Part shown: in pieces, positions 7,263 through 55,559 of the stretch | Layout: every line of letters starts with the position of its first letter | Position numbering within the stretch: position 1 is the stretch's first letter | From: Verrucomicrobiota bacterium | GTDB taxonomy: Bacteria; Verrucomicrobiota; Verrucomicrobiia; Limisphaerales; J093 | Reading direction: 5' to 3' | DNA length: 64,000 nucleotides | Assembly: GCA_022710935.1 (NCBI GenBank) | Contig: JAKLFY010000017.1 | Span: 1 to 64,000, forward strand | Program-made: the position numbers and the translations under genes | The notes under the pieces: model-generated | What the model was told of the DNA's origin: nothing | What the model saw: only the letters and a program-made list of their open reading frames with translations | The model's database searches: none

Positions 7263-7283
7263 CTCTCAACTCGCGATCACGCC

Positions 7284-7517: not shown

Positions 7518-7554
7518 GCGTCGGAACGACGGGTCTGGACAAAGACCTGCGTTT

Positions 7555-7613: not shown

Positions 7614-7822
7614 ACCCACGCTTCGGGGTTTGGTGCTTGAAGCAGCGCACTTACCAGTCGCACAGGTACCAGAATCCTCGTGGCAGTTGACATGCGGCGA
7701 GCGAGTCCGCATGGGGTGGGATCACGCAATGGAGGAAATTGGACGCTTGCACATTGCCGGTCTTCGCGACACCAGGTTGAGTCTGGGAACGTCGGGGCTG
7801 AAGCTTCCAGCACGGTGGCGAC

Positions 7823-9004: not shown

Positions 9005-9048
9005 GAGTGGATTGGCAATGGAGTGCTGGGAGCGCGCCTGACTGTCCG

Positions 9049-10296: not shown

Positions 10297-10299
10297 GGC

Positions 10300-13089: not shown

Positions 13090-13311
13090 ATGCAGGAACG
13101 CTGGCTATCGGTCGAGGAGATCGCGGCGCATCTGGGCGTGAACCCCGATACGATCTACAAGTGGATCACCCGCAAGAAGATGCCTGGCCACAAGCTGGGG
13201 CGCCTCTGGAAGTTCCTTGCCTCAGAAGTCGACGCATGGGTCAAAGGCGGCCATGCGGCGGAGGACGTCGCCCCAACCGTCACTCCCAACCGAAAGCTAC
13301 CCCGGCGATGA
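13090..13311 (+). CDS. Excisionase-family helix-turn-helix protein
   Basis: 73 residues. It has the MerR/excisionase-type winged HTH signature LSVEEIAAHLGVNPDTIYKWITRKKMPGHKLG followed by the typical LWKFLASEVDAWVKGG wing. Proteins of this class open many restriction and DISARM/BREX-like operons as regulators. The next gene begins 38 bp downstream on the same strand. The start at 13090 begins directly at the domain. It could control the long defence operon or act as a recombination directionality factor; the former is favoured by position. Confidence 0.82.
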   Translation: MQERWLSVEEIAAHLGVNPDTIYKWITRKKMPGHKLGRLWKFLASEVDAWVKGGHAAEDVAPTVTPNRKLPRR

Positions 13312-13348
13312 TGCCCAGGTTTATGCCCGCCAGCCCCCCCGTCACACC

Positions 13349-16225: not shown

Positions 16226-17446
16226 ATGAAACCACCAACTAAAACGAACCACGACAAGGTTGATTACTATTTCTCAAAGAACCCATCTTTCTACTGGATG
16301 GTGAGGTCTCGCAAGTCCCCTCTCTTGCGATTCGTAACCATCTTGCTCATCTGCTATGGCGTGGTCGCCCTCGCGTGCTGGCGACAAGACGCACTCTTCT
16401 TGCCGAAACCATCCATAGGTTTCTTCCAAGATCCATATTTCGTCGCCGTCATCATAACCATGATTATTGTGCTTATCATGATTCGGCGACTGTTGCTAAG
16501 GGTCGAGGATCTCATTGAGAAATTTCCGCAGATGCTCAAACCAGACCAGATTGATGAATTGTCCGAGAAGGGAGCACTAAGCGCCTCATCGGACCGGGTT
16601 CGGGACATCATCGCCCTCCGGGACCCGTCAGCCAGGAAGTGGCACCGTTTGTATATGTGTTTTTGGCTACTGATCGTGGTCATCCTCCACGTTGCCATGC
16701 CGTTCTTGGATCAGATGGGCCATTCGAGCTGGGGAGTTTCACCAAGACAATATCCGCTAAGCTACTCGTTCGCAGTCACGAGTTCCTTCCTCCTTTGGCT
16801 GGTTGTAGCCGGCAATCTGACTTGGTACGTCTTCGCCACTGGCTTTGCAGTTTTTCCGCTCATTAAGCAATACGCTTCCCGCGAAAAGCTCTGGATTGTC
16901 CCGAACGCACCCGACGGCCAGGGCGGACTGTCAGCCATCGGGGACGTCGCATTTGGCATGAGCACGGCCCTCGGAAGTGGAATGATAATGCTCGTTGTCT
17001 GGATCTTTCTGGTTGGTGCGGAAAAGGCACCCACAATTCTGGCAGGCGGCCTTTACAGCCTTGTCTTGAGTGCCACGTTCTTTGGCCCCCTCCGGTCAGT
17101 TCATGGCGCGATGATGCGGGCGAAAAATGGGGAACTCGATCGCATTTCCTCCCTCTTCAGGCGCGAGTACGAAAAACTGCCACCTTCCAACAGCGAGGAC
17201 AACTCCACGAAAGCCACTAACCCGGCGCTTGATTCGGAGTTGTCTGACCGGTTGGCTTTAATGGCCAAGCTTGACGCAGTTTACACCACCGTGAATGCCA
17301 TGCCCGTCTGGCCGTTTGACCTTGGCACCATTCGGAAGTTCCTCCTGCTGATTTCCATCCCAGTTGTTTCTGCATTACTCCAGAAGTTCTGGCCTTCCGC
17401 AGTCGGCACGGTTGTGGCGGAGATCGTGAAGGGATTCAGACCATGA
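16226..17446 (+). CDS. Multi-pass membrane protein of unknown function in the defence operon
   Basis: 406 residues with roughly six or seven hydrophobic helices: near 34-53, 70-90, 140-160, 180-205, 248-270, 272-293 and 366-386. A cytoplasmic-looking acidic/Ser-rich segment lies around 300-350. I recognise no family. The codons are visibly less GC-rich than in both neighbours, suggesting separate acquisition. It is embedded between the DrmD-like helicase (6 bp upstream) and the methylase (48 bp downstream). Standard DISARM has no membrane subunit. It might anchor the complex, sense infection at the membrane or act as an effector; all three are inference. Confidence 0.8.
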   Translation: MKPPTKTNHDKVDYYFSKNPSFYWMVRSRKSPLLRFVTILLICYGVVALACWRQDALFLPKPSIGFFQDPYFVAVIITMIIVLIMIRRLLLRVEDLIEKFPQMLKPDQIDELSEKGALSASSDRVRDIIALRDPSARKWHRLYMCFWLLIVVILHVAMPFLDQMGHSSWGVSPRQYPLSYSFAVTSSFLLWLVVAGNLTWYVFATGFAVFPLIKQYASREKLWIVPNAPDGQGGLSAIGDVAFGMSTALGSGMIMLVVWIFLVGAEKAPTILAGGLYSLVLSATFFGPLRSVHGAMMRAKNGELDRISSLFRREYEKLPPSNSEDNSTKATNPALDSELSDRLALMAKLDAVYTTVNAMPVWPFDLGTIRKFLLLISIPVVSALLQKFWPSAVGTVVAEIVKGFRP

Positions 17447-17494: not shown

Positions 17495-21541
<4,047 letters not shown>

Positions 21542-21589
21542 CCCTCGTGATTGAACAAACGAACATCGTCGGCATATGATACATCGTTT

Positions 21590-22582
21590 ATGAACGCGAC
21601 CCTGCTTAAGAGGCTTTTCGGAGCCCTGCAAAAAGGCCAGGGAAGGGACATTTCGGTCGTTTGCGAGAGGATAATCGAGGACCAGCGTCGTCGTGGCCAC
21701 AACAAGCTGGCGACCGAACTCGAACGCCTCGCCCCCAGCGGTGAACACGTTGGTGGTGAGGGCTCTCGGTCCCCTGGACCGGAGAACAGGGCGCTCGCTC
21801 CGTTACCGCTTAGCCGACGAGAGGTCGCGGCTCTCGTTCAGGTGATTCCACATGACCAGTTGCGGCACTACATGATCCTGCCCCCTTCGGTCGAGAGCCG
21901 GTTCATGAGGATCGAGAAGGAGTACGCAGCCAGAACCCGGCTCGCCAATTTCGGGTTGAGAGCGCGAACTCGTGTGCTGCTCCACGGTCCGCCGGGCTGT
22001 GGCAAGAGTCTCGGCGCCGAGCGTCTCGCCTGGGCCACAGGACTGCCGATGCACAAGGTTCGCTTCGATTCCCTGATTTCTTCGTATTTTGGCGAGACCG
22101 CCGGCAACCTCCGGCGGGTGTTTGATGACGCCGAGCGCCGGCCTTGCGCCCTCTTTCTGGACGAATGCGACACGATTGCGCGTTCGCGATTGGAGCGCAA
22201 CGACGTGGGAGAGGCCCCCCGTGTCGTGAACATGCTGCTCCAGCTTCTGGAAGATTTCCGCGCTGAAGGAATCGTCATCGCAGCGACAAACGTGGACGAG
22301 GCGCTCGATCCCGCGATCTTTCGCCGATTTGACGAAGTGCTTGAGGTCCCGAGGCCTGGGCGTGGTGAGATTGCGCGCCTGCTCAAAACAACGGTTTCAG
22401 CGGTGGAGGTGGGGCCGACAGTCTCCTGGAATCACTTGGCGGAGTTGCTGGAGGGGTGTTCCTGCTCGGAGGTTGTGCAAGTCGCTCAAAGCGCTGCGAA
22501 GCGCGCGGTAATGGGCAATCGTGCCGTCGTGGAACAAGGGGATTTCGAAGCCTCAATTCCCGAACTTCATCGCGTCGCCTAA
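21590..22582 (+). CDS. ietA: AAA+ ATPase of an IetAS-like pair
   Basis: 330 residues. It has a helical N-terminus, then a single AAA+ domain: Walker A HGPPGCGKS near residue 133, Walker B ALFLDECDTIA near 187, and the sensor and arginine-finger region AATNVDEALDPAIFRRFDE near 225-245. A subtilisin-like peptidase gene starts 18 bp downstream. This ATPase-then-S8-peptidase order matches IetA/IetS, known as a plasmid stability locus and later as an anti-phage pair. It would gate or activate the peptidase with ATP. It is unusual that the pair sits inside a DISARM-like gene string rather than as a free-standing operon. The start at 21590 is chosen at MNATLLKRLFG; upstream codons run into the methylase stop. 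Confidence 0.72.
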   Translation: MNATLLKRLFGALQKGQGRDISVVCERIIEDQRRRGHNKLATELERLAPSGEHVGGEGSRSPGPENRALAPLPLSRREVAALVQVIPHDQLRHYMILPPSVESRFMRIEKEYAARTRLANFGLRARTRVLLHGPPGCGKSLGAERLAWATGLPMHKVRFDSLISSYFGETAGNLRRVFDDAERRPCALFLDECDTIARSRLERNDVGEAPRVVNMLLQLLEDFRAEGIVIAATNVDEALDPAIFRRFDEVLEVPRPGRGEIARLLKTTVSAVEVGPTVSWNHLAELLEGCSCSEVVQVAQSAAKRAVMGNRAVVEQGDFEASIPELHRVA

Positions 22583-22600: not shown

Positions 22601-25216
22601 ATGCCCGATGCCCCCTTTCCCCACCTCGCACTCGTCGCGCTGCGGCACGGCCCCGCCCGCCTGTTCGGCGGCGGAGAACCCGACCCGCGCATCGCCGTCA
22701 ACAAGGACCAACGCCAGCAGCACGTCACACATCTTTCAGGGGGCCTCACTCGCATTGGGCAACGGTTCAACCGGATTTCTCTGGAGCGCGCGGCGCAGGG
22801 ACTGCCGCCCATCGAAGGGGGTGTGCCGTTTATGCTTGAAGTGGCGGAGGGCGACGAAGGGCTTCTTGATTTTCTCGAAACCCGGCTCGGGCTTGAAGTC
22901 GTTGCGGAGTATCCCGACGGATTCCTAATGGTGTCGGCCGCGGACGTGGCGATGCCTGAATTTCAGGATGTTCTCAAGGCATTTCAGGCGAACAAGCACG
23001 GGGCCACCAGGGCCGCATCCGTGTTCGAAATTCATGATGAACCGGACGCTGAGATTCGGCTGAAGCGGATGCTCGGCGATGATCTCTTTGCGTTCTGGCC
23101 TTTCCCTGACGATAAGGAATTCATTCTGGAAGTGTCTTTTAAGTCGCCAACGACGGACGGGCTCAAGCCAAAGCCAAACAAGCGCAAGAAGGAGAAGCCG
23201 GAGGCATACGAGCACAGGCTCGCTGCGTGGGAGGAAGAGCGCCGTCATGCCATGATCGCGATTGACAATGAGCAGATGCGCCGCGAGACATTGGCTGAGC
23301 AGATGATCCAGCCATACAGAGGGGTCTTGCTCAGCGGCTTTGCGCATTCAGCGACCCCCCATTCGCAGTTCGCTGAGCTCTCCGATAGCTTTTCGGTGCG
23401 CATTCGGATGTTGGGTCGCGGCTTCAAGGATTTGATCCAGAATCACCCCCATGTCTTCGAGCTGTCGTTACCGGATGATGTCCTCCTGCCGAGTGTCTTG
23501 GGAGTCGTCGGCGAGCCTGATTACCCCCCAGTCGAGTTAGCTGCCCCAGAAGCCGACGGAAAGGCGGTCTGCGTCGTGGACAGCGGCATTCAGGAGAATC
23601 ACCGGATGCTGCAGGCTGCCATGGATGTTTCAACCTCCCGGTGTTTCATCCCGAACGTACCGGCCAACGACGTGGCAGATTACGTTGTTGATGGCGGCCA
23701 TGGCACCAGGGTGGCTGGCGCTGCGCTCTACGGTGCCTCACTTCCAGGCGCCGGCCGAGTTGAGGCGCCGTTCTGGCTTCAGAATGCCCGGTTACTTCTG
23801 GGGCCTCGGGGGGAGTTACCTAGAGCGATTCATCCGCCCGTTGCACTGCGCGAGATCATCGAACACTTTCGCGACGGCCCCCGGCACACCCGCATCTTCA
23901 ACCATTCCATTTCCTCTGATCGGCCCGCGCGCTCATTGCGAATGTCCAGTTGGGCCGCCGAAATGGACTTCTTAAGCCATTCACGTGATGTGCTGTTCAT
24001 ACAGGCCATCGGCAATCTTAGCCGAGGCCACGGCTCGCAAAGCAATCCGACCATCGAGGACCACCTGTCGGCAGGGCGGAGTTGGCCGGACTATTTGTTC
24101 GAAAGGTCCGCCCGGCTCGCGAATCCCGCCCAGAGCCTCCAAGCGTTGACTGTAGGCTCGATTGCGATGGAAACATACCGCGATGGAAACAGGCGGTCCG
24201 TGGCCCGAGCGACCCACCCCTCAGCCTTTACGCGGTGCGGGTGTGGCCTCTGGGACTCAATGAAGCCGGACGTGGTAGAGTTCGGTGGCGACTATGCGTG
24301 GGATGGCGCCAATCCAGTCAGCTTGGCTTTGCCGCCGGGAGTCTGCCCATCGCTGGTGCGATCAACTCTCGACGGCGGACCGGCGGTTGCTCGTGATGTT
24401 GTCGGCACTTCGTTTGCGGCGGGTCGGGTGACGCATGTGGCTGGCCTACTTGAGAAGCTCTTGCCCGATGAAAGCACACTGGTGTACCGGGCGCTCATCG
24501 CCCAGTCGGCCCGCTGGCCTGACTGGGCTGAGCGCGCCGTAGTGGACGAAAAAGCGAAACACATTCGACTGCTCGGGTATGGCGTCCCTGATGCGGACCG
24601 CGCGACGTCCAACTCGGAATACAGGGTCACGTGCATCACGCAGGGCAACCAGAGCATAAAGGCGGGCGACGCGGCGATATTCGCCTTTTACGTTCCTGAG
24701 GAACTCCGAAGGATGGGGCAAGAGGCGGTCATCCGCCTTGATGTTACGCTTTCGTACTCTGCAGAGCCTCGTCGAACGCGCAGCAGCGGGCGCCGCTACC
24801 TCGCCGTTTGGCTCGATTGGGTTTGCAGCCGGCCGGGGGAAGCGCTGGAAGCGTTCAAGGGAAGGGTCTTCGCCGACGTTGTTCGGAGGAAAGATAGCGA
24901 AGGCGAGGAGCCTGATTGGACCCTGAGCCGGAGAGGGGATTGGGGAGAAATACCCGGCGCGAAGCGAGACGGCGGCACGCTCCAGAAGGATTGGACCTAC
25001 CTGAAAAGCTATGAACTACCGGAGGTGATTGCTGTGGCAGTTCGAGGCCACGAGGGCTGGGCACGACACAATCCAGAGGCGACCGCGCGATTCGCTCTTG
25101 CGGTCTCAATTGAGGCGGTGAATCGCGACTTGCGCGTCTACGAGCACGTCCAGGCTGAGATTCGGGCGCGGGCACCGCAGGTTCGGGTTCCTGCTGCCCC
25201 TCCGGCGGTGTCCTGA
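22601..25216 (+). CDS. ietS: Subtilisin-like S8 serine peptidase of an IetAS-like pair
   Basis: 871 residues with a complete catalytic triad in subtilisin order: Asp of VCVVDSGI near residue 327, His of GGHGTRVAG near 366, Ser of GTSFAAG near 603. A 300-residue N-terminal domain with a charged Lys/Glu-rich segment precedes the peptidase, and about 220 residues follow it. No signal peptide is seen, so it should act in the cytoplasm. It fits the large peptidase partner IetS. It begins 18 bp after the ATPase stop and ends 18 bp before the DUF1998 helicase, so it is a co-transcribed middle gene. The substrate is unknown; infection-triggered proteolysis is inferred. Confidence 0.75.
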   Translation: MPDAPFPHLALVALRHGPARLFGGGEPDPRIAVNKDQRQQHVTHLSGGLTRIGQRFNRISLERAAQGLPPIEGGVPFMLEVAEGDEGLLDFLETRLGLEVVAEYPDGFLMVSAADVAMPEFQDVLKAFQANKHGATRAASVFEIHDEPDAEIRLKRMLGDDLFAFWPFPDDKEFILEVSFKSPTTDGLKPKPNKRKKEKPEAYEHRLAAWEEERRHAMIAIDNEQMRRETLAEQMIQPYRGVLLSGFAHSATPHSQFAELSDSFSVRIRMLGRGFKDLIQNHPHVFELSLPDDVLLPSVLGVVGEPDYPPVELAAPEADGKAVCVVDSGIQENHRMLQAAMDVSTSRCFIPNVPANDVADYVVDGGHGTRVAGAALYGASLPGAGRVEAPFWLQNARLLLGPRGELPRAIHPPVALREIIEHFRDGPRHTRIFNHSISSDRPARSLRMSSWAAEMDFLSHSRDVLFIQAIGNLSRGHGSQSNPTIEDHLSAGRSWPDYLFERSARLANPAQSLQALTVGSIAMETYRDGNRRSVARATHPSAFTRCGCGLWDSMKPDVVEFGGDYAWDGANPVSLALPPGVCPSLVRSTLDGGPAVARDVVGTSFAAGRVTHVAGLLEKLLPDESTLVYRALIAQSARWPDWAERAVVDEKAKHIRLLGYGVPDADRATSNSEYRVTCITQGNQSIKAGDAAIFAFYVPEELRRMGQEAVIRLDVTLSYSAEPRRTRSSGRRYLAVWLDWVCSRPGEALEAFKGRVFADVVRRKDSEGEEPDWTLSRRGDWGEIPGAKRDGGTLQKDWTYLKSYELPEVIAVAVRGHEGWARHNPEATARFALAVSIEAVNRDLRVYEHVQAEIRARAPQVRVPAAPPAVS

Positions 25217-25234: not shown

Positions 25235-28200
25235 ATGAGCATCTTCAACCTCCACGCCACCGTCCTCGGCGACTACTGCGATTTCGTCCGCTCGTTCTTC
25301 ACTGTGGCCGACGGCCGTGCCCGCGCGTTCGTGGACCGCGAACTCATGGAACAGGCTCGGCTCTGGCCGGAGGCGTTGCTGCAGGTCAGCCCGTCGTACG
25401 CGCGCGTTGCCTCAGTCGATCAATTGGCCGAGCAAGGCGTGCTGCTTTATGAGACGGCCGAGATCTTCCGCACCGAGACAGGTTCGCCTTTTGAGATCTT
25501 GGAGCTGAATGAGCGCGGTGGTACTCCAGGCGTCATTCGGCAGGGCCAGCCGTTCCACCTCTACCAGCACCAGGTTGAAGCGATGGAACTCGCTCGCCGC
25601 GGCGAAAGCTACGTCGTCACCAGCGGCACCGGTTCGGGCAAGAGCCTCACGTATTTTCTGCCGATCATTGACTCGTTCCTACGCCGTCCCCCCGCACGCG
25701 ACCGCGTCGAGGCGCTTGTTGTGTATCCCATGAACGCCCTGGTGAACTCGCAACTTGAGGCACTCAACAAGCTGAAGAAGGGCTACGAACAGCGCACCGG
25801 CCGGCGTTTCCCTACCAGCTTCGCCAAATACACCGGCGACGTACAGGGCGAGGCCCGGCGCGATCTACAGAACCACCCGCCCCAAATCCTGCTCACCAAT
25901 TACGTGATGGCGGAACTGATGCTCGTCCGCCCCGACGACCAGCCATTCCTCCCCCCACTCGCCACTCGCCACTCACCACTCGCCACTTCTTCCGGGGTTC
26001 GCTTCCTCGTCTTCGACGAGTTGCACACTTATCGCGGTCGCCAGGGCGCGGACGTGGCCATGCTCATCCGGCGCTTGAAGGAACGCTGTGCCGCGCCCGA
26101 ACTGATTTGCGTGGGCACCAGCGCCACGATGGTCGCCAGCCGTGACGCCACGCCCTTGCAGCGACGCGAAACCGTAGCGGATTTCGCCTCGCAAGTCTTT
26201 GGGCGCCCGATTACCGAAGCCCAGGTCATCGAGGAAACGCTCGAACCCTTCACTCAGGGCGGCCCGCCTACACGGGAAGAACTGGTGGCCGCTGTGAGGA
26301 CGTGCACGGAACAGCGGGAGCAAGCTCTACGCACTCCAAACGCTGGCGCGACTTCGAGCAGGCCGCCTGACGCGCGAAGCGTTTGGAGTGCGTCCGGCTT
26401 GCCGACGCTTTCACTTGACGAGTTCCGGCGGCATCCGCTGGCACGGTGGGCGGAATGGGAGTTTGGCGTCGAAACAGAACCGGGAAACCGCCTCCGGCGG
26501 CGAGTTCCGCACACGCTTTCGGAGGCTGCCGCGCGGCTGGCGGAAGCCACTGGGATTGACCGTGGCCTATGCGAAGGGCGGCTGCGCGCCTTGCTCACCC
26601 GCGGCGGCGAGTTGCTCCGCGACGACGGCGGGCGCGCGTTTGCCTTCAAGCTACACCAGTTCATCGGGCAGGGCCGTGCCGTGTTCGCCACCCTTGAACC
26701 GGCCGCCACACGGCAATTTTCCCTTGAAGGCCAGGCGTTTGCCGGGCCGGGCCGACTCTTCGTGCCCATCAAGTTCTGCCGCCACTGCGGTCAGGACTAC
26801 TACCACGTCATTGGTACTGGTGGCGGCTCCCGCTTCCTGTCGCATCCACTTGGCACGCACACCATTCAGAACGGCGACCAGGCCGGCTACCTGATGCTCG
26901 CCCCTTTGTCGAATGACTGGAGCGAGGACCGTATTCCCGACGAATGGCGAGACCAGCGAGGCCGCCTCAAGCCCACTTGGCGTGACCGTGTCCCCCAGGC
27001 CGTCTGGGTCACCCCCAACGGCGACTCCTTCACCATGCCCCGCAACGGCGCAATCAAACTTTGGTGGCAGCCGACCCCGTTTTCCCTCTGCCAGAATTGC
27101 GGCGAGTTCTATACCGCTCGTGAGCTGGAGTTCGCCAAGCTGGCTTCGCTGTCCAGCGAAGCCCGCACCAGCGCAACCACTGTGCTCGCCACGTCGTTGC
27201 TCCGCCGCGCCGCCAGCCAGGAGGGCGCGCGCGACAAATTGCTCACCTTCACCGATAATCGCCAGGACGCTTCGCTCCAGGCCGGCCATTTCAACGATTT
27301 CATTCACGTCTCCCTTCTCCGCTCGGCCCTTCACGCCGCCCTCTTGCGCGACGACGAACTCACCTTTGAACGCGTCGCCGATGCCGTGGTCCGCACCAGC
27401 GGTCTCACCACCCGCGAGGTAGCCAGGAACCCGGAGCTGGATCCGGAGTCCCCGGCTGCCGCGGACGTTCTCCGCGCCTTCACCGAACTGACCGAATACC
27501 GCCTCTACGAAGACCTGCGGCGCGGCTGGCGTGTCGTCCAGCCCAACCTCGAAAACGTCGGGCTGCTCCGCGTCGGCTACCGTGGCCTGGAAGCCCTCTG
27601 CGCCGCCGACGCCCGCTGGCGCTTCCATCCCTCAGTCGCCCTAATCGCGCCAGCCCAGCGCGAGCGCCTCGTCCGCGCACTCCTCGACCAGTTCCGCCGC
27701 AAGCTGGCCATCGCCTGCCGCTGCTTGGAGGAAACCAACCAGCAACAAATCCGCCGCCGCGCCGAACAACACCTCAACGAGTTCTGGGGCCTGGACGAAA
27801 GCGCCCCGGAACTGCGCACGGCCAACCGCTTCGTCCGCGAGGGCCAATCTCAGCGCCTGGCCGACGGCTTCAGCCTCGGCGCTCGCAGCAAGCTCGGCCG
27901 CTTTCTTGCCTCCGAGCTCAACCTCGATCCAACCGCCTACGAGGCCTTTATTGACGGCCTGCTCGCGATGCTTGTCGGCCAGGGCCTTCTCCGCCGCCTG
28001 GACCCACTCGACGACCACCAGTTCTTCCAGTTGGACGCCGCTTGCCTGCTGTGGCGCTTGGGCGATGGCAGCGCGCCGCCGCTTGATCCCCTTTACGCGC
28101 GTCGCGCCGGAGCCGACGGCTACGCCGAGACGCCGCCGCCCGTGAACGCCTTCTTCCAGCAGTTTTACCGCGACTCCGCTGCCGCGCTCGCCGCGCTGGA

Positions 28201-30508
28201 AGCCCGCGAGCACACTGCCCAGGTCGTCAAACCTGGCGAACGCGAGCGCCGCGAACGGCGCTTCCGCTGGGAGAACAGCGACACCACCAAGGAGCGCGAC
28301 GGCCTTCGCCGCCTGCCTTACCTCGTCTGCTCCCCCACCATGGAACTTGGCGTGGACATCGCCGACCTCGACCTAGTCCACCTTCGCAACGTGCCGCCGA
28401 CGCCCGCCAACTACGCTCAGCGCAGCGGACGGGCCGGCCGCCAGGGGCAGCCTGGTCTGATTTTCACCTACTGCGGTGCCATCAATAGTCACGACCAATA
28501 CTTCTTCCAGCGCCGCGCTGACATGGTGGCGGGCAGCGTGCGCCCCCCTCGCCTGGATGTTGCCAACGAGTCACTCGTGCGGGCGCATCTCCATGCCGTG
28601 TGGCTCGCCCAGGTGCGACTGCCACTGGGCGACTCCATCGAGGAAGTCATTGATACCGACGACGAGGCCCAACTCCCGCTGCGGGCGAGTGCCCTTGACG
28701 CCATTCAGCTTTCCGAGCCCGCCCGCAACGAGGTGCGCGCCCGGGTCCGCCGCATCCTCCAATTCGATCTTGCTGCACTCGCCAACGCCGGTTGGTTCAG
28801 TGACGCATGGCTGGAAGCCGTCATCTCCGAAGCCCCCGTCAATTTCAACCGCGCCTTCGATCGGTGGCGTGAGCTTTTTCGTGCCGCGATACGGCAATTG
28901 ACCGAAGCCCAGACCGCCCTCAGGCGGGCGCGTGACCGTGATGCCCAGGCAGACGCCCGCCGCCGCGAGGAAGAGGCGCTCCGCCAGCTCAACCTCTTGC
29001 GCCAAATCTCCAAGAACCGGGAAGAGAGCGACTTTTACCCCTATCGCTACCTTGCCAGTGAGGGATTCCTGCCCGGCTACAATTTCCCGGCCCTGCCCGT
29101 GCGCGCCTGGGTGCCGCGAGACGATGGCGAGTTCATTTCACGACCCCGCTTCCTCGCGCTGCGCGAGTTTGGTCCGAACAATATCCTCTACCACGAGGGC
29201 GCGAAGTGGGAGGTCGCCAGCTTCCAGTCTCCCCCCGGCGGGCTGGAGGAGCGCCGCAGCCAAAAGCGCTTCTGCGGTGCCTGTGGGGCTTTCTGCGACA
29301 CCGGGCTTGATTGCTGTCCGGATTGCACCAGCCGCTTTGACCCAACGAACAGTGAGTTGCTTACCATGCTGGAGCAGCCCAATGTGCGCTGTCGCCGCCG
29401 CGAGAGAATCACTTGCGACGAGGAGGAGCGCCGGCGCCGCGGCTTCGAAATCACGGTGGCCTACCAGTTTGCCACTGAACCCGGCGGCGCACGCCGGATT
29501 CGCGAGGCCGACGTAATGGTCGGCCAGACACCCGTCCTTCGTCTCACCTACGGCCCAGCGTCCACACTGCTTCGGGTCAACCGTGGATGGCGCAGCGCCA
29601 CCACGCCTGGCTTCCTCGTGGACCTCGAAAGCGGCGAGGTTCTAAACGCGCCGCCGCCAGCCACCGGACCAGCCCCTCGCCCCCGCCGTCTGGAGCGCGT
29701 CAATCTCTCGGTTCAAGCCACACAAAACCTCTTGTTAGTGCGCTTGCTCCGCCCGGAGCTTAGGAGCGATCCGGGCTTGGAAGCCACCCTGCAATACTCG
29801 ATCCAGCGGGGCATGGAGCAGTTATTCCAACTGGAAGAATCGGAACTCGGCGCGGAGCGCGTCGGTAAAGGCGAGCAGCGTGCGTTGCTCTTCTTCGAGT
29901 CAGGCGAAGGCGGCGTCGGCGCCCTGCGCAGGCTGGTTGACGAAGCCGACGCTGTGGCCCGTCTGGCTGTCGAAGCACTGGAGCGCTGCCATTTCGATGC
30001 GGCGGGTACCGACCAGCGACCCACCTGCCTCGCTGCGTGCTACGAATGCCTGATGAGCTTTGGCAACCAGCACGAGTCCTTGAGCCTCGACCGCCACCGG
30101 CTGAGGCAGCACTTGCTCGACCTGGCGACCAGCCGTACCTTCCCGCGCATTGCGGGCCGCGACTGGAATGCACATCTCCCCTGGCTTCGCTCGCTGACCG
30201 ATTCCCGCTCCGACATCGAGCGTAGCTTCCTCACGGCGTTGGCGGCAGGATTCCATCGTTTGCCCGACGAGGCCCAAAAGCCCATTCCAGAACCGCGCTG
30301 CATCCCGGATTTCTTCTACGCCCCTAACGTCTGCGTCTTCTGCGACGGCTCCGTCCACGACGAACCCGCCCAGGTCACCCGCGACCGTGAGTTGCGCGCA
30401 GAACTGGTGAGCCGGGGCTACCGCGTCATCGTCATCCGCTACGACCGCAACCTCCAAGACGAAATCGTCGCCCACCCCGACGTCTTTGGGATTCGGATAG
30501 CCAGGTAG
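25235..30508 (+). CDS. DUF1998 helicase with C-terminal PD-(D/E)XK-like domain (DrmA+DrmB-like fusion)
   Basis: 1757 residues. The helicase core has Walker A SGTGSGKS near residue 132, FDELH near 260, GTSATM near 290 and motif [13 protein letters not shown] near 1063. Cysteine pairs for zinc occur at CRHCG (near 514), CQNCG (near 619) and CGACGAFC...CCPDC (near 1347). A DUF1998-type segment, [15 protein letters not shown], lies near 1600. The last 80 residues (IPDFFY...[11 protein letters not shown]...VIRYD) look like a Vsr/PD-(D/E)XK nuclease. DISARM normally splits helicase DrmA, DUF1998 protein DrmB and phospholipase-D nuclease DrmC; this protein seems to combine the first two and to replace the third. 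DruE of Druantia is an alternative relative. Two repeat insertions are read in frame (25957-25984, 26329-26393). Confidence 0.8.
25957..25984. repeat. Tandem 7-bp repeats inside the helicase gene
   Basis: Four units of ACTCGCC (third unit ACTCACC) run from 25957 to 25984 and are translated as the Leu/Ala/Thr/His-rich linker [16 protein letters not shown] directly before the FDELH strand. Slippage could change the reading frame because the unit is 7 bp. Confidence 0.75.
26329..26393. repeat. 65-bp perfect-armed palindrome inside the helicase gene
   Basis: ACGCACTCCAAACGCT (26329-26344) and its exact reverse complement (26378-26393) are separated by 33 bp. The element is read in frame ([11 protein letters not shown]...SVWSASG). 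The perfect arms suggest a recent or selected insertion of a MITE-like unit into a loop of the helicase. Confidence 0.8.
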
Positions 30509-30757: not shown

Positions 30758-30975
30758 ATGCGGAGCAATCACCACAAATACCCAAACCGGAGAGCGATCT
30801 CTCACCAAACCAAATTGAACAGGTATTTTCTCTGCTCACGTTGCAGACCGAGGAGGATCGGCTGAAATTCAAGGTGATGGCGGAGGTTCTCCGACCAGAG
30901 GACGGCCCTTCGCACACCTGGTCGTCTGCCACCACAACTTCTCACGAAGAAACACAGGGAGGAGCGAATGCCTAA
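30754..30975 (+). CDS. Small acidic protein upstream of the SDH-type peptidase
   Basis: 73 residues. A GAGGAAGAG ribosome site precedes the ATG. The middle segment DLSPNQIEQVFSLLTLQTEEDRLKFKVMAEVL looks like two helices; the tail is Ser/Thr-rich. It overlaps the peptidase start by 8 bp, so the two are coupled. I do not recognise a family. It could be an adaptor or regulatory partner of the peptidase. Confidence 0.6.
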   Translation: MNAEQSPQIPKPESDLSPNQIEQVFSLLTLQTEEDRLKFKVMAEVLRPEDGPSHTWSSATTTSHEETQGGANA

Positions 30976-31876
30976 TTGGAACCAACTCTTTAACGAGGTC
31001 AAGGCGCTCGGTAGCCCCCACGATGTGTTGCGTCGGAAATATTTGGCCGCGCTCCACGAAGAGACGAAGCGCAACATCATCACGTATTATAGCGGGTGGT
31101 TGCAGAAACCCAGTTTCCCTGGAGGGGCGATCAATGATGAGGACAAGAACGGCTTCATGACCACGGTCAACGGCCTCGACAGGTCCTTGGGCCTGGACCT
31201 CATCTTGCACACGCCGGGCGGCGAGACTGCGGCCACAGAATCATTGGTGGACTACTTGCGAAAGATGTTCAAAGGCGACATCCGCGCCGTTGTCCCTCAA
31301 GTGGCGATGTCTGGCGGGACGATGATCGCATGTGCCTCCAGGGTCATTCTGATGGGTAAACAGTCCAGTCTTGGGCCGGTTGACCCCCACTTCGGCGGAA
31401 TCCCAGCACACGGGGTCATCGAGGAATTCAAGAAGGCATACGAAGAGATCAAGCAAGACCCCGCAAAGATACCCGTATGGCAACCCATCATCGCTAAGTA
31501 CTCACCGGCCTTCATTGGAGAGTGCCAGAAGGCTATCACGTGGTCCGAACAACTGGTTCGCGATTGGCTTGCGACCGGTATGCTTGCCGGAGATGAGAAG
31601 AAGGACGAGAAAATCAACCGGATCGTCGGAGAGCTGGGTAATCATGCGCTAACCCTTTCACATGCCCGACACTTGCCGGCTGACACCTGCTCTGCGATGG
31701 GCCTCAAAGTCGAGATGCTAGAAGAGAAGCAGTCGCTGCAAGACGCAGTGCTCAGCGTTCATCACGCATATATGCTGACACTATCGCAAACCCCGGCGTG
31801 CAAGATCATTGAGAACCACACGGGTGCGGCATTCATTCAGAGTGCTCAGGTGCAGATCGTTCAGACGGTCAAATAG
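30968..31876 (+). CDS. SDH-type serine peptidase with ClpP/crotonase fold
   Basis: 302 residues. It shows the hallmarks of the SDH_sah family, a ClpP/SppA-related fold: HTPGG at 81-85, nucleophile Ser115 in AMSGGTMIA, and LGPVDPHFGG at 135-144. No signal peptide or membrane segment is visible, so it is cytoplasmic. Members occur as stand-alone proteases in bacteria and in defence neighbourhoods. A strong GGGAGGA ribosome site precedes the start, and the gene overlaps the 73-residue ORF. It is bracketed by two decayed hsdS tails. It is the second protease in this operon besides the subtilisin. The substrate is unknown. Confidence 0.82.
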   Translation: MPNWNQLFNEVKALGSPHDVLRRKYLAALHEETKRNIITYYSGWLQKPSFPGGAINDEDKNGFMTTVNGLDRSLGLDLILHTPGGETAATESLVDYLRKMFKGDIRAVVPQVAMSGGTMIACASRVILMGKQSSLGPVDPHFGGIPAHGVIEEFKKAYEEIKQDPAKIPVWQPIIAKYSPAFIGECQKAITWSEQLVRDWLATGMLAGDEKKDEKINRIVGELGNHALTLSHARHLPADTCSAMGLKVEMLEEKQSLQDAVLSVHHAYMLTLSQTPACKIIENHTGAAFIQSAQVQIVQTVK

Positions 31877-31987: not shown

Positions 31988-34609
31988 ATGCAAGCCCAGC
32001 CAAAAACCATTCGGGATATCCTCCACACCGGGGATCAATACATCATCCCCCTGTTCCAGCGCTTCTATTCCTGGGAAAAGTCCCACTGGGAACGCCTGCG
32101 GATGGACATCTGGGCACTGATGGAAGACGGCGCGAAGCCGATTCACTTCCTCGGGCCGCTCGTCTGCACCCTGCCGCCGCGCTTGCCCGGTAACATATCC
32201 GCCTTCCAACTGATTGACGGCCAGCAGCGCGTGACCACGCTCACGATTCTCCTGGCGGCCATCCGTGATGTCGCCAGGTCGCGTAACCTCAACGACTTTG
32301 CCGACGAAGTCACCGAGGATTATCTCTTGTTCAAAAGGAAACAGGGCAGCGACCGCTATAAGGTCCTTCCCCGCCTCGGCGACCGCGAAGTCCTCACGGC
32401 GTTGGTTGAAGGCAACGATATGTCAGGCTTCGCGGACAGCCGTGTTTTTGAAGCGTGGAAGTACTTCCACCGGCACGTCCAGCATCTGTCGCGTAAGGAC
32501 ACCCATGAACAACTCGCCAGATTGCTGGACGTCATCACCACCCGCCTGAATTTGGTTGCCGTTCTGATTGATGCCGAGAATCCCTACGAGATTTTTGAGA
32601 GTCTCAACTCCACCGGCCTGCCGCTCAAGGAATCTGACCTCATCCGCAACTTCGTCTTCATGGCCATCCCGTTGGCCAAGCAGCAGGAGTTCAATGAGCA
32701 ACACTGGAAGACGTTTGAGGAGATGTTCGATGCCACGGAAATGGACGAAGCCGTCGAGATGACGCCTTTTTACCGGGACTACCTGATGCGGAAAGGCAGA
32801 TATTCCAAGGAAGACGCCACCTTCGTGGATTTCAAAGCTGCCCATGAGCAGGCCATCCAGAATCCCGATGCCCTCGTTGTTGAACTCAAGCGTTACGCCC
32901 GCCTTGATCTCATGTTGCGCCGGCCCCGTTCTGTGCGGGACGACGCGCTGCGCGCCATCTTGCGCCAGGTCGAAGGCATGGAGATCACAACGGCTTACCC
33001 GCTGATCCTCAATCTCCTCGACCGGTTCGACCGCGGCCAGTTGACCAAGGAGGATTTGTGTGGTTGCCTGCATGATCTCGTCAGCTTTGTCCTTCGGCGC
33101 TCCATCTGTGGCGAGACCACTCGCACCTACGGCAAGTGGTTCGTCGAGGCCATCACTTTGATTCGGAACAACCCGCGGGTCGACCTCCAAGCCTATTGGT
33201 TGGGCCGCAGGTGGCCAGATGACGCCGCCGTCCGCGGGCGTCTCCCCAGTTTTGAGCTGTATCGCCGTGAAAGCACCAAGACCCGCGTCATTCTCGAAGC
33301 GTTGGAGGAGAGTTTCGGCCATCGCGAGCGTGTCGACCTGTCCACCCTGACTATTGAGCATGTCGTGCCCCAAACCATTTCCAACAACAAGCACGGCAAG
33401 GCGTGGAAGGAGATGCTTGGCGACGAGTGGGAAATGATCCACGACACCCTGCTCCACACCCTGGGTAACCTCACTCTCACCGGCTACAACACCGAGTTGA
33501 GCAATTCCGCCTTCGACGTCAAACGCGTCGAACTCGGCAAAAGCCATCTTGACCTGAACAGCTACTTCCCGGCCTTGCCAAAATGGGATGCCGAGGCCAT
33601 CCGCGTGCGGTCGGTTGTTTTGGCGGAACGCCTAGTCAACCTCTGGCCACGCCCCGCAACAGATGTCGTCTATGCCGCTTCCGCCGAGGCCATGCCCCAA
33701 CCGGAGGGTCTGACAAATGCCGCCAAGCAACGCCTCGAATACTGGCGTCACATGGACGTCCGACTGGAGGAACGGGGCGTGCGCCCCGGCCTCATCGTTG
33801 CCGCTCCCGATTCCTCCATCACCGCCGCCATCGGGGATTCCGGCGCTGCTGAACTTGAGTTTGGTTTCAACCAGCAGCGCGGTCGCATATTCCTTTCCCT
33901 CAACCTCTCTGATGAAATCGGCGCATACATCGCCGGCCACCTCGCCGAGGCCAAAAGTGTCGTCGAGCAGGAATTGGGCTACGCGCTCGAATGGGAAATC
34001 CGCAACCAGGGCGGTGAGATCTCCATCTCTGACGAAGGCATTCAAATCCGCGATGAAAATGACTGGCCGGTCCAACACGATTGGTTTGGCGACCGCCTGG
34101 AGGACTTCCAGCGCGTGCTCCAACGCCGCGTCGTGGCGCTGGAACAGGAGGCCCTGAATGTGCCCGAACTCCGCCAGGCTTGCGAACAGCGCGCGTTGCT
34201 TGTCCGGTACTGGCGAGCCTGTTCGGCGGCATTGGCCGGGTCAAACCTCTCGTTCCCCGAGAGTGCCCCGGACGCGGGCCGCACCCTCTGCCGGTTCAAG
34301 CCGCTAGACGATGGCATCCATTTGGGTGCCCAGTATTACCCCACCACTTCAACGCTCTGTGTGTATTTTGCAGTTGGAAGTTCTGCCGGGCGCAACTACC
34401 GGCGTCTCTACAAGGAACTCGTGGAAAGCCACATCCCGGAGCTGGAGAATCAGGTCGGCGAGACGCTGCATTGGGAAGACCCCTATTTCTGGGTCGCCAT
34501 ACCCGCGAACATCGCCAACGCGGACGACTGGCCGCGCCAGCATCAATGGGTCAGGACAGTGGCGGAAAGGTTTGTCGCGACATTCAAACCCAGGCTCGGG
34601 ATCGAGTAA
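31988..34609 (+). CDS. DUF262/DUF1524 GmrSD-like protein with two DUF4268-like repeats
   Basis: 873 residues. The N-terminal DUF262 domain carries the ParB-like NTPase signature IDGQQRVTTL at 76-85. The DUF1524 HNH nuclease segment reads TIEHVVPQT near 455 and LGNLTLTGYN near 492. The C-terminal 300 residues contain two copies of a DUF4268-like domain, each with a YWR start, a UWxI-type strand and a DDW/NDWPxQHxW end (about 575-720 and 740-870). GmrSD enzymes are type IV restriction systems that cut modified DNA and also occur as single polypeptides. It is the last gene of the rightward string, 111 bp after the peptidase gene. The start at 31988 is chosen at MQAQPKTIRDIL. Confidence 0.82.
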   Translation: MQAQPKTIRDILHTGDQYIIPLFQRFYSWEKSHWERLRMDIWALMEDGAKPIHFLGPLVCTLPPRLPGNISAFQLIDGQQRVTTLTILLAAIRDVARSRNLNDFADEVTEDYLLFKRKQGSDRYKVLPRLGDREVLTALVEGNDMSGFADSRVFEAWKYFHRHVQHLSRKDTHEQLARLLDVITTRLNLVAVLIDAENPYEIFESLNSTGLPLKESDLIRNFVFMAIPLAKQQEFNEQHWKTFEEMFDATEMDEAVEMTPFYRDYLMRKGRYSKEDATFVDFKAAHEQAIQNPDALVVELKRYARLDLMLRRPRSVRDDALRAILRQVEGMEITTAYPLILNLLDRFDRGQLTKEDLCGCLHDLVSFVLRRSICGETTRTYGKWFVEAITLIRNNPRVDLQAYWLGRRWPDDAAVRGRLPSFELYRRESTKTRVILEALEESFGHRERVDLSTLTIEHVVPQTISNNKHGKAWKEMLGDEWEMIHDTLLHTLGNLTLTGYNTELSNSAFDVKRVELGKSHLDLNSYFPALPKWDAEAIRVRSVVLAERLVNLWPRPATDVVYAASAEAMPQPEGLTNAAKQRLEYWRHMDVRLEERGVRPGLIVAAPDSSITAAIGDSGAAELEFGFNQQRGRIFLSLNLSDEIGAYIAGHLAEAKSVVEQELGYALEWEIRNQGGEISISDEGIQIRDENDWPVQHDWFGDRLEDFQRVLQRRVVALEQEALNVPELRQACEQRALLVRYWRACSAALAGSNLSFPESAPDAGRTLCRFKPLDDGIHLGAQYYPTTSTLCVYFAVGSSAGRNYRRLYKELVESHIPELENQVGETLHWEDPYFWVAIPANIANADDWPRQHQWVRTVAERFVATFKPRLGIE

Positions 34610-39255: not shown

Positions 39256-41160
39256 ATGACCGAAGTATCGAAGACACATCCGCCCGCATTTCCCGGTTTT
39301 CCCGATTTTCAGGCCAATGTGACCTTTGTCCCGCTGCAGTTCTTCACCATCGTCCTTCCCCACTCCTCGCGCGGCTGTGTCCGGCTGGTGGGTTACATGC
39401 TCCGGCGCATCCTGGGCTGGGTCGACACCGACGGCAATCCAACCCGCGAAAAGCTGCAGTTCAGCTATCGGGATTTGATCCGGGACGCGGGTGTTTCACG
39501 TGAAAACGTGCCCGAGGCCCTCGACGAGGCCATCCACCGAGGCTTCGTGCGCTGCGTGCGCCCGCCGCGGGCCGCCCGGCGGGGCCAGGCGGCGCAGTGC
39601 GGCATCTACGAGTTGAACTGGGACGAACGGGGACCGTACACGAATGCACCCGAGTCGTTCGATGGCTTCTACTTCCCGGAGGCGGCGGTGATGACCTTTG
39701 ACGAGAGCGGAACTGCGGTCCAACGGCCCAAGGTGGCGCGCAAGAACATTCCCAACACCTTCTTCGACTACCTTTTGCCGCGCGAACGGCTGTCCGTCAT
39801 CCGGGTCGTGGGCGCGATGCTCTTCTACAGCATCCAATGGGGACCCGGCGGCGAACGCAAAGTCCCGGTTACACTCTCGATTTCCGAACTGGCCCGCTTG
39901 ACCCAACTCTCGCGTCAACATGTCCACACCGCCCTCACCAATGCCGAGGCTGCGGGCTACCTCACCTGCGTCGAGCCAGGCCGGTTCGATGCCAACGCGG
40001 GCATCGAAAGCCGCCCGGCCACCTACGCCGTGCGGTGGATCAGTGCGATGATGGTACCTCTAAACGGCGAGGACTTGGATGGTTCCACAGCTCCCCACTC
40101 GGAAATGGCGAATGGTGAGCAGTCCGAAAAGGTGAACGGCAGAGCGGTCAGAAAAGGTGAACGGGACCAGTCCGAAAAGGTGAACGGGGAGCGGTCAGAA
40201 AAGGTGAACGGTATAAGGATTAAAAAGGAACTTAAAACAGGTACAACAGCAGCAGCAATGTACCACCGTGAGGCGGCTGCGCCGGATGCTGCGGCTGTCG
40301 ATCCCGCCAGTGTGGAGTTGCTGGTGCAGACTGGGTTCGACGAACGGGGGGCCCGGTCTCTGACCGCCCAGTCTTCCCCGGAGATCATCCGCCAACAACT
40401 GGAATGGCTGCCGCTGCGCAGGGCGAGACACAGCCGGTTGGGACTCTTACGCCGGGCCATCGAACAGAACTGGCCCAAGCCGGAGCGGTTCGACGGGCCG
40501 GCGCCGGCGGCCGGGGAGGCGGCGGAGGTCTTTGCCCGGTACTACTACGCCGGTTATCACGGGAACGAAGGCGAGCCCGCCGCCGAACCGCAAGCCAAGG
40601 ACGTGCACGCCGCCGCCAGCGTAGTCGGTCGGCTGCTGGAAATTGACCGCAAGCCGTCTTTGGTACCCGAATGGGCTCGGGAATTCGGCCGGTTCGTCCG
40701 CGGTCGACAGCGGGGCGATGCTCGCGCCAAGCCCTACTTGGGACCAGCCGCGCTGCTCCATGCCGACGACTTCGTCCTCCGCGTCCGCATCCGAGCCCAA
40801 CGCGCACGGGTTGCACACCCGTTGCCGGTGCAGCCATCGCGGCAGGAGTCCTTTGCCGACGCTTACCACCAGTACCTCGCACAGACGGAGCAACGGTATC
40901 GCCAGGAACTGCCCGAACTGTATGCGGAATTCACCCAGCACCGGCAGCAGAGCCGCCACATCATTGAGTCCGGTCTCTGCCGCGAACTGCCCCGGATGCT
41001 GGAGTGGTTCGACGCCGACGCCACCCGCCTGAGCGCTTTCGCCAAGTATTTCCGCCGGCACCGGGAGCACCCGGTGCCCGGCTTTGAGCAATGGGATGCG
41101 CGGTATAACCGGCGGCCACCGCCGGACCCGCCGCCAGCATTGGAGCACGTCGCAGGATGA
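39256..41160 (+). CDS. Plasmid replication initiator-like protein
   Basis: 634 residues. The N-terminal 260 residues contain two winged-helix-like units: PLQFFTIVLPHSSRGCVRLVGYMLRRILGW with FSYRDLIRDAGVSRENVPEALDEAI, and LLPRERLSVIRVVGAMLF with ISELARLTQLSRQHVHTALTNAEAAGYL. These resemble Rep proteins and helix-turn-helix primosomal proteins. A low-complexity Ser/Glu/Lys/Asn stretch near 285-320 corresponds to the DNA direct repeats at 40101-40211. The C-terminal 300 residues are helical and unknown. The stop overlaps the parA start (ATGA). RHH, rep and parAB neighbours support a replication role; no catalytic motif proves it. Confidence 0.6.
   Translation: MTEVSKTHPPAFPGFPDFQANVTFVPLQFFTIVLPHSSRGCVRLVGYMLRRILGWVDTDGNPTREKLQFSYRDLIRDAGVSRENVPEALDEAIHRGFVRCVRPPRAARRGQAAQCGIYELNWDERGPYTNAPESFDGFYFPEAAVMTFDESGTAVQRPKVARKNIPNTFFDYLLPRERLSVIRVVGAMLFYSIQWGPGGERKVPVTLSISELARLTQLSRQHVHTALTNAEAAGYLTCVEPGRFDANAGIESRPATYAVRWISAMMVPLNGEDLDGSTAPHSEMANGEQSEKVNGRAVRKGERDQSEKVNGERSEKVNGIRIKKELKTGTTAAAMYHREAAAPDAAAVDPASVELLVQTGFDERGARSLTAQSSPEIIRQQLEWLPLRRARHSRLGLLRRAIEQNWPKPERFDGPAPAAGEAAEVFARYYYAGYHGNEGEPAAEPQAKDVHAAASVVGRLLEIDRKPSLVPEWAREFGRFVRGRQRGDARAKPYLGPAALLHADDFVLRVRIRAQRARVAHPLPVQPSRQESFADAYHQYLAQTEQRYRQELPELYAEFTQHRQQSRHIIESGLCRELPRMLEWFDADATRLSAFAKYFRRHREHPVPGFEQWDARYNRRPPPDPPPALEHVAG
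39492..39507. promoter_or_regulatory. parS-like palindrome inside rep
   Basis: TGTTTCACGTGAAAAC matches 14 of 16 positions of the canonical chromosomal parS (TGTTTCACGTGAAACA), including the complete inner palindrome TTTCACGTGAAA at 39494-39505. It lies 1.6 kb upstream of parA-parB within coding sequence. Confidence 0.45.
40101..40211. repeat. Iteron-like direct repeats inside rep
   Basis: GAAAAGGTGAACGG occurs at 40126-40139, 40151-40164, 40174-40187 and 40198-40211. A degenerate fifth copy, GGAAATGGCGAATGG, begins at 40101. The starts are 25, 25, 23 and 24 bp apart, about one helical pitch times two. Because the spacing is not a multiple of three, the second copy is read in a different frame; the conservation is therefore at DNA level. 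Confidence 0.7.
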
Positions 41161-41927
41161 GAGTGATTGCCATCATCAACCAGAAGGGCGGCGTCGGCAA
41201 GACGACGACCGCGGTGAATCTCTCGGCTTATCTGGCCCGAGCCGGATTGGAAACGCTGCTCATTGACCTGGACCCCCAGGCGCACGCCACGGTCGGGCTG
41301 GGCCTGGAGCCGGACCTTCTGGATGGAGCCACGATTGGCGAGGTGCTGCTGTCCGACGACGGCTCAGTCGAGGCCATCGTGACCGCGACATACCTGGCGG
41401 CGCTCAAGGTCGCCCCGGCCTCGATCCGGCTCTCGAAGGTCGAGTCGCTGCTCCAGGCACGGCACTTCCGCGAGCAGCGCCTGCTCCACGCGCTGGAGCC
41501 GTTGCAGGGCTTTCAATACGTCGTGATCGACTGCCAGCCTACCTTGGGCGTCCTGCCCGTCAACGCCATGGTCGCCGCCGATCATTTCCTCATTCCGGCA
41601 CCCCCCGCCGGCTATGCGTTGCGCGGCTTGGGCGATCTGCTCGAAACCCTCCACGGCGTCAAGCGCTACGCCTCGGGATGGGATTTTCGGGTGTTGCTCA
41701 CCATGGTGATGGGCAAGGCCACGGTGACCAATGAACTGATCCGGGTTGCTCTGGAACCGCTGCGGGAGAAAGTGCTCCACACCACCATCGCCCGGTGCGA
41801 AATCCTCAATCGCGTCCAGACCGTCGATCACCCCAGGGACATCGGCGCTTACGCCGCCAACAGCCGCGCCGCCGCAGACTACCAATTGTTGGCTCAGGAG
41901 ATTCTTGCATTATGGCCACCTCACTAA
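41157..41927 (+). CDS. parA: ParA partition ATPase
   Basis: 256 residues, Soj/ParA type Ib-like without an N-terminal HTH. The deviant Walker A is KGGVGKTTT at residues 10-18 (signature lysine present), DLDPQAHAT is near 38-46, and the Walker B region VVIDCQPTLG is near 122. It drives segregation of replicated copies along the nucleoid together with ParB. Its start overlaps the rep stop, and its stop overlaps parB by 16 bp, so rep-parA-parB is one transcript. Confidence 0.95.
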   Translation: MRVIAIINQKGGVGKTTTAVNLSAYLARAGLETLLIDLDPQAHATVGLGLEPDLLDGATIGEVLLSDDGSVEAIVTATYLAALKVAPASIRLSKVESLLQARHFREQRLLHALEPLQGFQYVVIDCQPTLGVLPVNAMVAADHFLIPAPPAGYALRGLGDLLETLHGVKRYASGWDFRVLLTMVMGKATVTNELIRVALEPLREKVLHTTIARCEILNRVQTVDHPRDIGAYAANSRAAADYQLLAQEILALWPPH

Positions 41928-42730
41928 GAGAACGACTCGCCCGCCAAGCCAACGGCGAACTGCACCTGCCCCTCGATCCGGTCAGGCACGATGAACCGCG
42001 CCTGGTGGTCGTGCCCCTGGACCTCATCGAGCGCGATCCTGAGCAGCCGCGCAAAGACTTGGGGGACCTGACCGAACTGGCTGAGTCGATCCGCGAACAG
42101 GGCGTCGTCCAGCCGCTGATCGTCGAGCCCATCGCCATGGATCGTTTTCGCCTGCTGGCCGGGGAAAGGCGCCATGCGGCCTGTAAACTCGCAGGCTTAC
42201 ACGAAGCACCGTGCATCGTGCGGACTGTCGAGGACCACTCGCGTCTGGCGCTGCAATTGATCGAGAATCTGCATCACAAGCCTCTCACCCCCATCGAGGA
42301 GGCCACCGCCTATCGGCGGTTGCTCGAAGAGTTCAACCTGACCCAACGAGAGCTGGCCCAAAGACTGGGAAAATCCCTGGGGTCCATTAACCAGACGCTC
42401 CGGCTGCTTGACTTGAGTCCGGAAGTCCAAGCCGATGTACGGACGTCTGAACCACCTAGCAAATCAGTACTGCTCGAAATCGCCAAGGAACCTGACGGGC
42501 AACGCCAGAGTGCCCTCCTCAAGGAAGCTCAAGCAGGCAGACTAACGGTGCGGGCCGCCAAGCAAAGGAAGCAGGCAACGGCCACGGGGCAGGCGAAGAA
42601 GACGTCCAAGGTCCACGCGATTGAATTGACCCAAGCCACCGTCACGATTCGGTTTCATCAGGGGGAGGTGACCCAGGCGGGCTTGATCGCAGTGCTGGAA
42701 GAGGCCCTGGCGCGTACCCGGTCTGCCTGA
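41912..42730 (+). CDS. parB: ParB/Spo0J-family centromere-binding protein
   Basis: 272 residues. The N-terminal CTPase domain shows GERRHAACKLAG near residues 88-99 and the ENLHHKPLTPIEEATAYRRLL segment. A central HTH reads LTQRELAQRLGKSLGSINQTLRLL, and a short C-terminal dimerisation region follows a Lys-rich linker. It should bind parS-like sites and load ParA. Two kinds of candidate site are present: the canonical-like parS at 39492 and the four 18-bp palindromes, one of which starts 22 bp after the parB stop. The start at 41912 (MATSLRERLAR) lies inside parA; a longer frame exists but lacks a better start. Confidence 0.93.
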   Translation: MATSLRERLARQANGELHLPLDPVRHDEPRLVVVPLDLIERDPEQPRKDLGDLTELAESIREQGVVQPLIVEPIAMDRFRLLAGERRHAACKLAGLHEAPCIVRTVEDHSRLALQLIENLHHKPLTPIEEATAYRRLLEEFNLTQRELAQRLGKSLGSINQTLRLLDLSPEVQADVRTSEPPSKSVLLEIAKEPDGQRQSALLKEAQAGRLTVRAAKQRKQATATGQAKKTSKVHAIELTQATVTIRFHQGEVTQAGLIAVLEEALARTRSA

Positions 42731-55555: not shown

Positions 55556-55559
55556 TCTC

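Follow-up and report, generated by a model that had tools for sequence, protein, structure and literature searches.

The window analysed here, 64,000 nucleotides (nt) of a Verrucomicrobiota bacterium (GenBank assembly GCA_022710935.1, contig JAKLFY010000017.1, positions 1 to 64,000), encodes on its forward strand a 1757-residue protein (25235–30508) that is best explained as ArmC, the helicase–nuclease component of an anti-phage system of ARMADA Type I. We put the probability of this reading as a whole, including the mechanism proposed below, at about 85%. Three components define ARMADA (Bell et al., 2025 preprint; PMC12458937): a PglX-like methyltransferase and two helicases, one of the YprA family and one BrxHII-like. 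In Types I and II, ArmC ends in a Vsr nuclease that is predicted to be active, and Type I genes are arranged as C-A-B or, in many archaea and cyanobacteria, as A-B-C (PMC12458937). Our computations cover the genes present and their order, the fold of the domains, the conservation of residues and the placement in the tree. The Type I features found were DEAD, Helicase_C and MZB domains in one open reading frame (ORF), a Vsr-type C terminus, an ArmA gene, an ArmB gene and the position of the protein in the Type I clade. The fusion of helicase, DUF1998 and Vsr domains was published in the 2025 preprint, so the protein is an added member of ARMADA I.

The ORF starts with ATG and runs for 1757 codons with zero internal stops. 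Pfam detects, in order, DEAD (amino acids (aa) 111–300, 1.7e-22), Helicase_C (aa 1002–1071, 4e-8) and, above its cut-off, MZB/DUF1998 (aa 1519–1606, 1.8e-8; 29789–30052), in agreement with an earlier description made without database searches (the sequence-only reading) of helicase, DUF1998 and nuclease fused in one chain. The helicase motifs are intact, with GTGSGKS at 131 and DELH at 261 in the RecA1 domain (aa ~108–345; 25556–26269) and QRSGRAGR at 1062 in the RecA2 core (aa ~985–1135; 28187–28639). Conservation was assessed in 42 sequences, comprising the window protein, relatives from genome contigs and four loci of related genomes. The Walker A lysine K136 and DE-x-H 261–264 are conserved in every sequence that aligns there, and R1066 and R1069 of the RecA2 core are present in 42/42. 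Cysteines are retained at 515/518 and 619/622 in 39–40 sequences (26777–27100) and at 1347/1350 and 1361/1364 in 40–42 (29273–29326). Across the CxxC pairs at 515/619, 1347/1361 and 1602, each cysteine is found in at least 39 of the 42 sequences, except C1598 (35/42), which fits the three zinc sites that had been proposed from the cysteine pairs. The same genome holds a second MZB/DUF1998 helicase (G000:C193, ~40660–42546; L089) in a 913-aa frame that is distant in the tree and is perhaps a housekeeping protein of the YprA/MrfA type.

The C-terminal domain of ArmC (aa ~1640–1750; 30152–30484) is predicted to be a nuclease of the Vsr/EDxHD type. We modelled the last 168 residues with AlphaFold2 using an alignment of 40 relatives, and the predicted local distance difference test score was 92–98 over most of aa 1640–1749. 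The top four VIA-align matches included I-Bth0305I, an EDxHD homing endonuclease (Z 9.1, 90 residues, 2.8 Å), and Vsr (1cw0; Z 8.1, 90 residues, 2.5 Å); the other two were mitoribosomal proteins (Z 8.2–8.5), and further PD-(D/E)XK proteins, for example TnsA and Bax1, came next. The Vsr/PD-(D/E)XK-like ending that had been placed at residues 1650–1757 is thus upheld in its fold and moved in its start, as the core begins at about aa 1640. Of the 40 relatives, 32 matched Pfam DUF559 and 28 matched MTES_1575 (best E 1.3e-9), and the window's own domain reached just E 0.0021. Five residues, E1662, D1692 (in PDFFY), D1704 (in CDG), H1708 and D1717, are invariant in 42/42 sequences at identities down to 25% within the domain. 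Both features on which the sequence-only reading had staked its nuclease assignment, a nuclease core in the predicted structure and acidic catalytic residues in the homologues, are therefore present. The order of these residues resembles the E-D-x-H-D motif that gives the EDxHD family its name (PMC3943268), to which they may correspond residue by residue. Given the predicted fold, the Pfam matches and the residues present in 42/42, the domain is likely to be a working nuclease. Some YprA-family C-terminal nucleases are inactivated, namely those of Druantia I and II and the extra domains of ARMADA II (PMC12458937), and the fused domain could be structural or DNA-binding only, with the effect on phage coming from ArmA or from an IetA/IetS-like pair in the locus, another possible effector with motor and protease motifs present. 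The invariance of the five candidate catalytic residues in all 42 sequences argues against a domain that does not cut, which we regard as unlikely.

Two upstream genes on the same strand supply the other ARMADA components. The first (13217–16219) encodes an ArmA-like SNF2 helicase of the RapA/BrxHII type (1000 aa), with Walker A and DEAH motifs. Its PADLOC matches were the DpdE model PDLC02853 (1.7e-181 over aa 44–996) and DrmD (3.7e-86); it also matches BrxH and RapA models, and against NCBIfam DrmD it scored 323 bits, under the cut-off of 610. RapA-like ArmA, DrmD and DpdE proteins cross-match one another's models. Dpd/BRIGADE was set aside despite the top DpdE match, by tree and gene content only, with no search for deazaguanine genes made. 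The second gene (17495–21541) encodes an ArmB-like N6-adenine methyltransferase of the PglX/DrmMI kind (1348 aa), which matched Pfam Eco57I (1.6e-15), PADLOC DrmMI (2.2e-73) and a PglX model and carries NPPW at aa 773. The locus thus shares with described Type I systems the YprA helicase with DUF1998 and a predicted active Vsr, the BrxHII/RapA-like helicase, the PglX-like methyltransferase and the A-B-C order; it differs in additional genes at both internal junctions, described below.

In the tree, the window protein joins all Type I references, seven from C-A-B loci (L069, L071, L072, L074, L075, L084 and L085) and four from A-B-C loci (L070, L086, L087 and L088), in a clade of 33 rows with a Shimodaira–Hasegawa approximate likelihood-ratio support of 100. 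Its close relatives are mostly 44–87% identical and come from Verrucomicrobiota, Acidobacteriota, Planctomycetota, Chloroflexota, Armatimonadota and other phyla, indicating that the system is widespread. ARMADA II references, with ArmD (L078 from Escherichia coli, and L081), and Druantia III references, with DruH-type genes (L078, L080 and L082), fall outside this clade. Type II in E. coli likewise has ArmA, ArmB and ArmC in that order and a Vsr domain on ArmC, but its ArmC is longer (2113 aa in L078) and is followed by ArmD, a UvrD-like protein with a RelE-like domain. The 97-kb contig yielded neither a UvrD-type helicase nor an ArmD-like gene, and the gene after ArmC is ClpP-like.

The protein could instead be DruE of a Druantia system, as its top PADLOC matches are DruE models (1.5e-78) and its list of Protein Data Bank matches is headed by solved relatives of 2108 and 1970 aa. 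However, the PADLOC hits (2023) include no ARMADA model, and DruE is thus probably no more than the nearest model. Druantia III shares with the window the logic of a YprA-family helicase–nuclease, but it has only two components, DruH and DruE. DruE of Druantia III ends in phospholipase D (PLD) domains and that of Druantia I and II in inactivated Vsr domains (PMC12458937), whereas the nuclease here is of the Vsr type with an intact site. The neighbours are ArmA- and ArmB-like, and no DruH model matched them; PLDc_2 was not found on the contig, and the Druantia III references form a clade of their own. We therefore rejected Druantia III and consider identity with DruE very improbable. The sequence-only reading, which had offered DruE as an alternative relative, was right that the DruE side is closer (1.5e-78 versus 1.3e-13 for DrmA), but the relation is that of a cousin.

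That reading had also suggested a variant of DISARM in which the fused Vsr domain may stand in for the PLD nuclease DrmC. DISARM (DrmA, DrmB, DrmC, DrmMI and DrmD) has the same helicase, DUF1998, methyltransferase and SNF2 helicase functions, the locus contains a DrmMI-like methyltransferase and a DrmD-like helicase, and two proteins are common to DISARM and ARMADA (PMC12458937). Yet in DISARM the DrmA helicase and the DUF1998 protein DrmB are products of separate genes, here joined in one chain, and DISARM has DrmC and no Vsr. DrmA models matched weakly (1.3e-13 over 66 aa; NF038325 at 18 bits against a cut-off of 950). PLDc_2 was unmatched on the whole 97-kb contig, which confirms and extends the earlier remark that no phospholipase D gene lies nearby. 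A phylogeny of the helicase with DrmA and DruE had been suggested as a check; it placed the window with the ARMADA I references, apart from Druantia III, and the DrmA sequence, used as the outgroup, on a very long branch, against a DISARM origin. With helicase and DUF1998 in one ORF and no DrmC on the contig, DISARM was rejected, and its chance of being correct is slighter still than that of Druantia. The replacement of DrmC falls with it, the protein belonging to the ARMADA Type I lineage, in which a C-terminal Vsr domain is the normal state.

Several points weigh against assignment to Type I ARMADA with an active nuclease. Of the two Type I orders on record, A-B-C is the rarer in bacteria. 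The tree came from a quick maximum-likelihood search in IQ-TREE with long outgroup branches, and the Type I label of its 11 reference loci was assigned here by gene order and content, not taken from the accessions of Bell et al. The VIA-align Z scores of 8–9 are modest, and Foldseek alone gave zero matches below E 0.5 for the nuclease model. A BrxA-like helical insert is expected after RecA1 in Type I; the model of aa 320–900 of this protein has a predicted template modelling score of 0.45 and low-confidence domain packing, and neither Foldseek nor VIA-align returned a useful structural match to it. Finally, in the literature surveyed, phage tests cover Type II and not Type I (PMC12458937).

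For Type I ARMADA we propose the following mechanism. By analogy, ArmB would methylate adenines of host DNA as a mark of self, and ArmA would remodel, or translocate along, DNA that lacks the mark. ArmC would load on DNA that has a single-stranded 3′ portion, a polarity suggested by MrfA and SftH, which are 3′–5′ helicases (cited in PMC12458937), and by DruE of Druantia III, reported as a helicase–nuclease that loads on 3′-tailed DNA (PMC13192584). Its RecA motors, with the zinc-rich OB/DUF1998 canopy, would drive translocation, and the metal-dependent EDxHD-type site of the C-terminal domain may nick or cut the invading DNA. If the domain cuts, a separate nuclease such as DrmC would be unneeded. 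An ARMADA II was shown to require all four genes for anti-phage activity and to protect without killing the cell (PMC12458937).

Between ArmB and ArmC, the operon carries two further genes that resemble IetA and IetS. The IetA-like AAA+ ATPase (21551–22582, forward strand) matched the PADLOC IetA model at 1e-70 and has the motifs GPPGCGKS and FLDECD; its ORF opens at a TTG (21551), and the first ATG, at 21590, is the likelier start. The IetS-like S8 (subtilisin) peptidase (871 aa; 22601–25216, forward strand) matched Pfam Peptidase_S8 (2.9e-23) and PADLOC IetS (5.3e-57), with Asp, His and Ser motifs at DSG 327, HGT 367 and GTS 602. The pair shares with IetAS the combination of an AAA+ ATPase and an S8 peptidase with intact Walker A and Asp-His-Ser motifs. 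Its NCBIfam scores (1.2e-60 against IteA) lie under the equivalog cut-offs, and we therefore call it IetAS-like. The relatives that we checked, on plasmids of Burkholderia, Synechocystis and Leptolyngbya (L102, L104 and L105), are free-standing, which gives the pair inside the ARMADA operon the look of an inserted module. It is probably a second, self-standing defence module in which the ATPase controls the protease, and it may cooperate with the ARMADA genes.

The whole order is ArmA-X406-ArmB-IetA-IetS-ArmC, all on the forward strand, with stop-to-start gaps across the six genes of 6, 48, 48, 18 and 18 nt (taking the IetA ATG at 21590), and the IetA/IetS-like pair probably shares a transcript with the ARMADA genes. 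A promoter scan gave four sites against 2.4 expected by chance and has no proof value; one site begins at 21551, just 5′ of the first ATG of IetA. X406 (16226–17446) encodes a 406-aa membrane-like protein with several hydrophobic segments and zero matches in Pfam, PADLOC or NCBIfam. No homologue was found in 96 related genomes; the single match elsewhere, weak and partial, lies on a Microvirga plasmid (E 8e-6). Among the loci compared only the window has X406 between ArmA and ArmB. These two genes are spaced by −3 to +4 nt in 14 of 16 close relatives, too tight for any gene, compared with 1276 nt in the window. X406 and the IetA/IetS-like genes are new with respect to the main text of Bell et al. 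(PMC12458937), in which 'Iet', 'protease', 'peptidase' and 'accessory' never occur; its supplement may list accessory genes.

The junction of ArmB and ArmC was measured in the window and in 22 related loci, 23 in all. It is empty in six (L015, L022, L023, L033, L049 and L061; gaps of −3 to 16 nt) and occupied in 17, by about 0.9–7 kb of often defence-like cargo. L030 was scored as occupied, with only an ArmB 3′ fragment abutting its ArmC, and L056 is ridden with frameshifts. By Pfam and PADLOC, the cargo includes CBS-DUF4268, OLD-like AAA ATPases, GmrSD_N, a weak HEPN match, DUF3644, AAA_14-DUF4143, PIN, an M78/IrrE peptidase and RmuC, as well as AbiEi/AbiEii upstream of ArmC in L036. Almost none of these genes resemble one another. 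Plasmid A-B-C loci hold VapC, Uma2, Rpn and AAA/radical-SAM genes at the same junction.

In four loci the cargo lies between incomplete copies of the 5′ end of ArmC: L029 (10001–11331; 214 nt, 93%), L044 (3407–6002; 312 nt, 73%, with the ArmB 3′ end included), L036 (525–3742; three copies, 73–91%, around two modules, AAA_14-DUF4143 and AbiEi/AbiEii) and L017 (2406–5594; 68 nt, 76%). L053 has a shorter copy of 40 nt. A control piece from the interior of ArmC gave no such copies in L029, L044, L036 or L017. We left out of this count the repeats at the junctions of L026, L046 and L052, which also occur at other places in the same loci. In the window, neither direct repeats nor ArmC 5′ copies surround the IetAS-like genes. 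The flanking copies, few as they are, fit insertion or exchange by recombination at this junction. Another member of the window's genus (G001) has, close to a different ARMADA I operon, a short ORF (L062, 2153–2461, reverse strand) that matches in one frame the start of ArmC (aa 1–28) and the end of ArmB (~aa 1243–1345), and that looks like the remnant of a collapsed junction.

We lean, by a narrow measure, towards the view that A-B-C Type I operons hold a cargo slot between ArmB and ArmC, two genes that otherwise overlap or nearly do so. Modules unrelated to one another, and often defence-like, would enter this slot and be swapped by recombination, leaving behind copies of the ArmB 3′ and ArmC 5′ ends, so that one transcript would combine a core restriction system with an exchangeable second line. 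The window's cargo is the IetAS-like ATPase–protease pair, and this cargo together with the probable slot is the new element at the locus. Embedded cargo as such has a precedent in BREX, which carries auxiliary effectors, accessory nuclease or toxin genes, inside its core locus (passages covered of PMC12839542). BREX has other core genes, and junction duplications flanking the cargo are not described in those passages.

Directly 3′ of ArmC lies a gene for a ClpP-like serine protease of the SDH type (30968–31876), a second protease adjoining the operon besides IetS. Downstream of it is a GmrSD-type gene with a C-terminal DUF4268 (31988–34609), a domain that also occurs in the ArmB–ArmC cargo of L014 (8312–9985). 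Upstream, positions 1872–11295 hold a gene for a 1796-aa SNF2 helicase on the forward strand and radical-SAM-like, DUF2201 metallopeptidase/VWA and MoxR-type AAA genes on the reverse strand. PADLOC gave zero matches for these reverse-strand genes; the region is possibly a further defence-like cluster. Genes for a ParA-like ATPase (41157–41927), a TrwC-type relaxase–helicase (43139–45940) and a TraC-like protein (55515–56939) are also present. As defence genes stand beside conjugation genes, the contig is probably a conjugative plasmid or an integrated element.

With this locus ARMADA I gains a well-conserved member, the Vsr-like site of ArmC is seen to stay unchanged in many phyla, and a false lead, that of a DISARM with its DrmC replaced, is cleared away. 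If the slot is real, scanning it would directly list new accessory defence genes, as earlier scans of defence islands did, and would make joint action of core and cargo testable.

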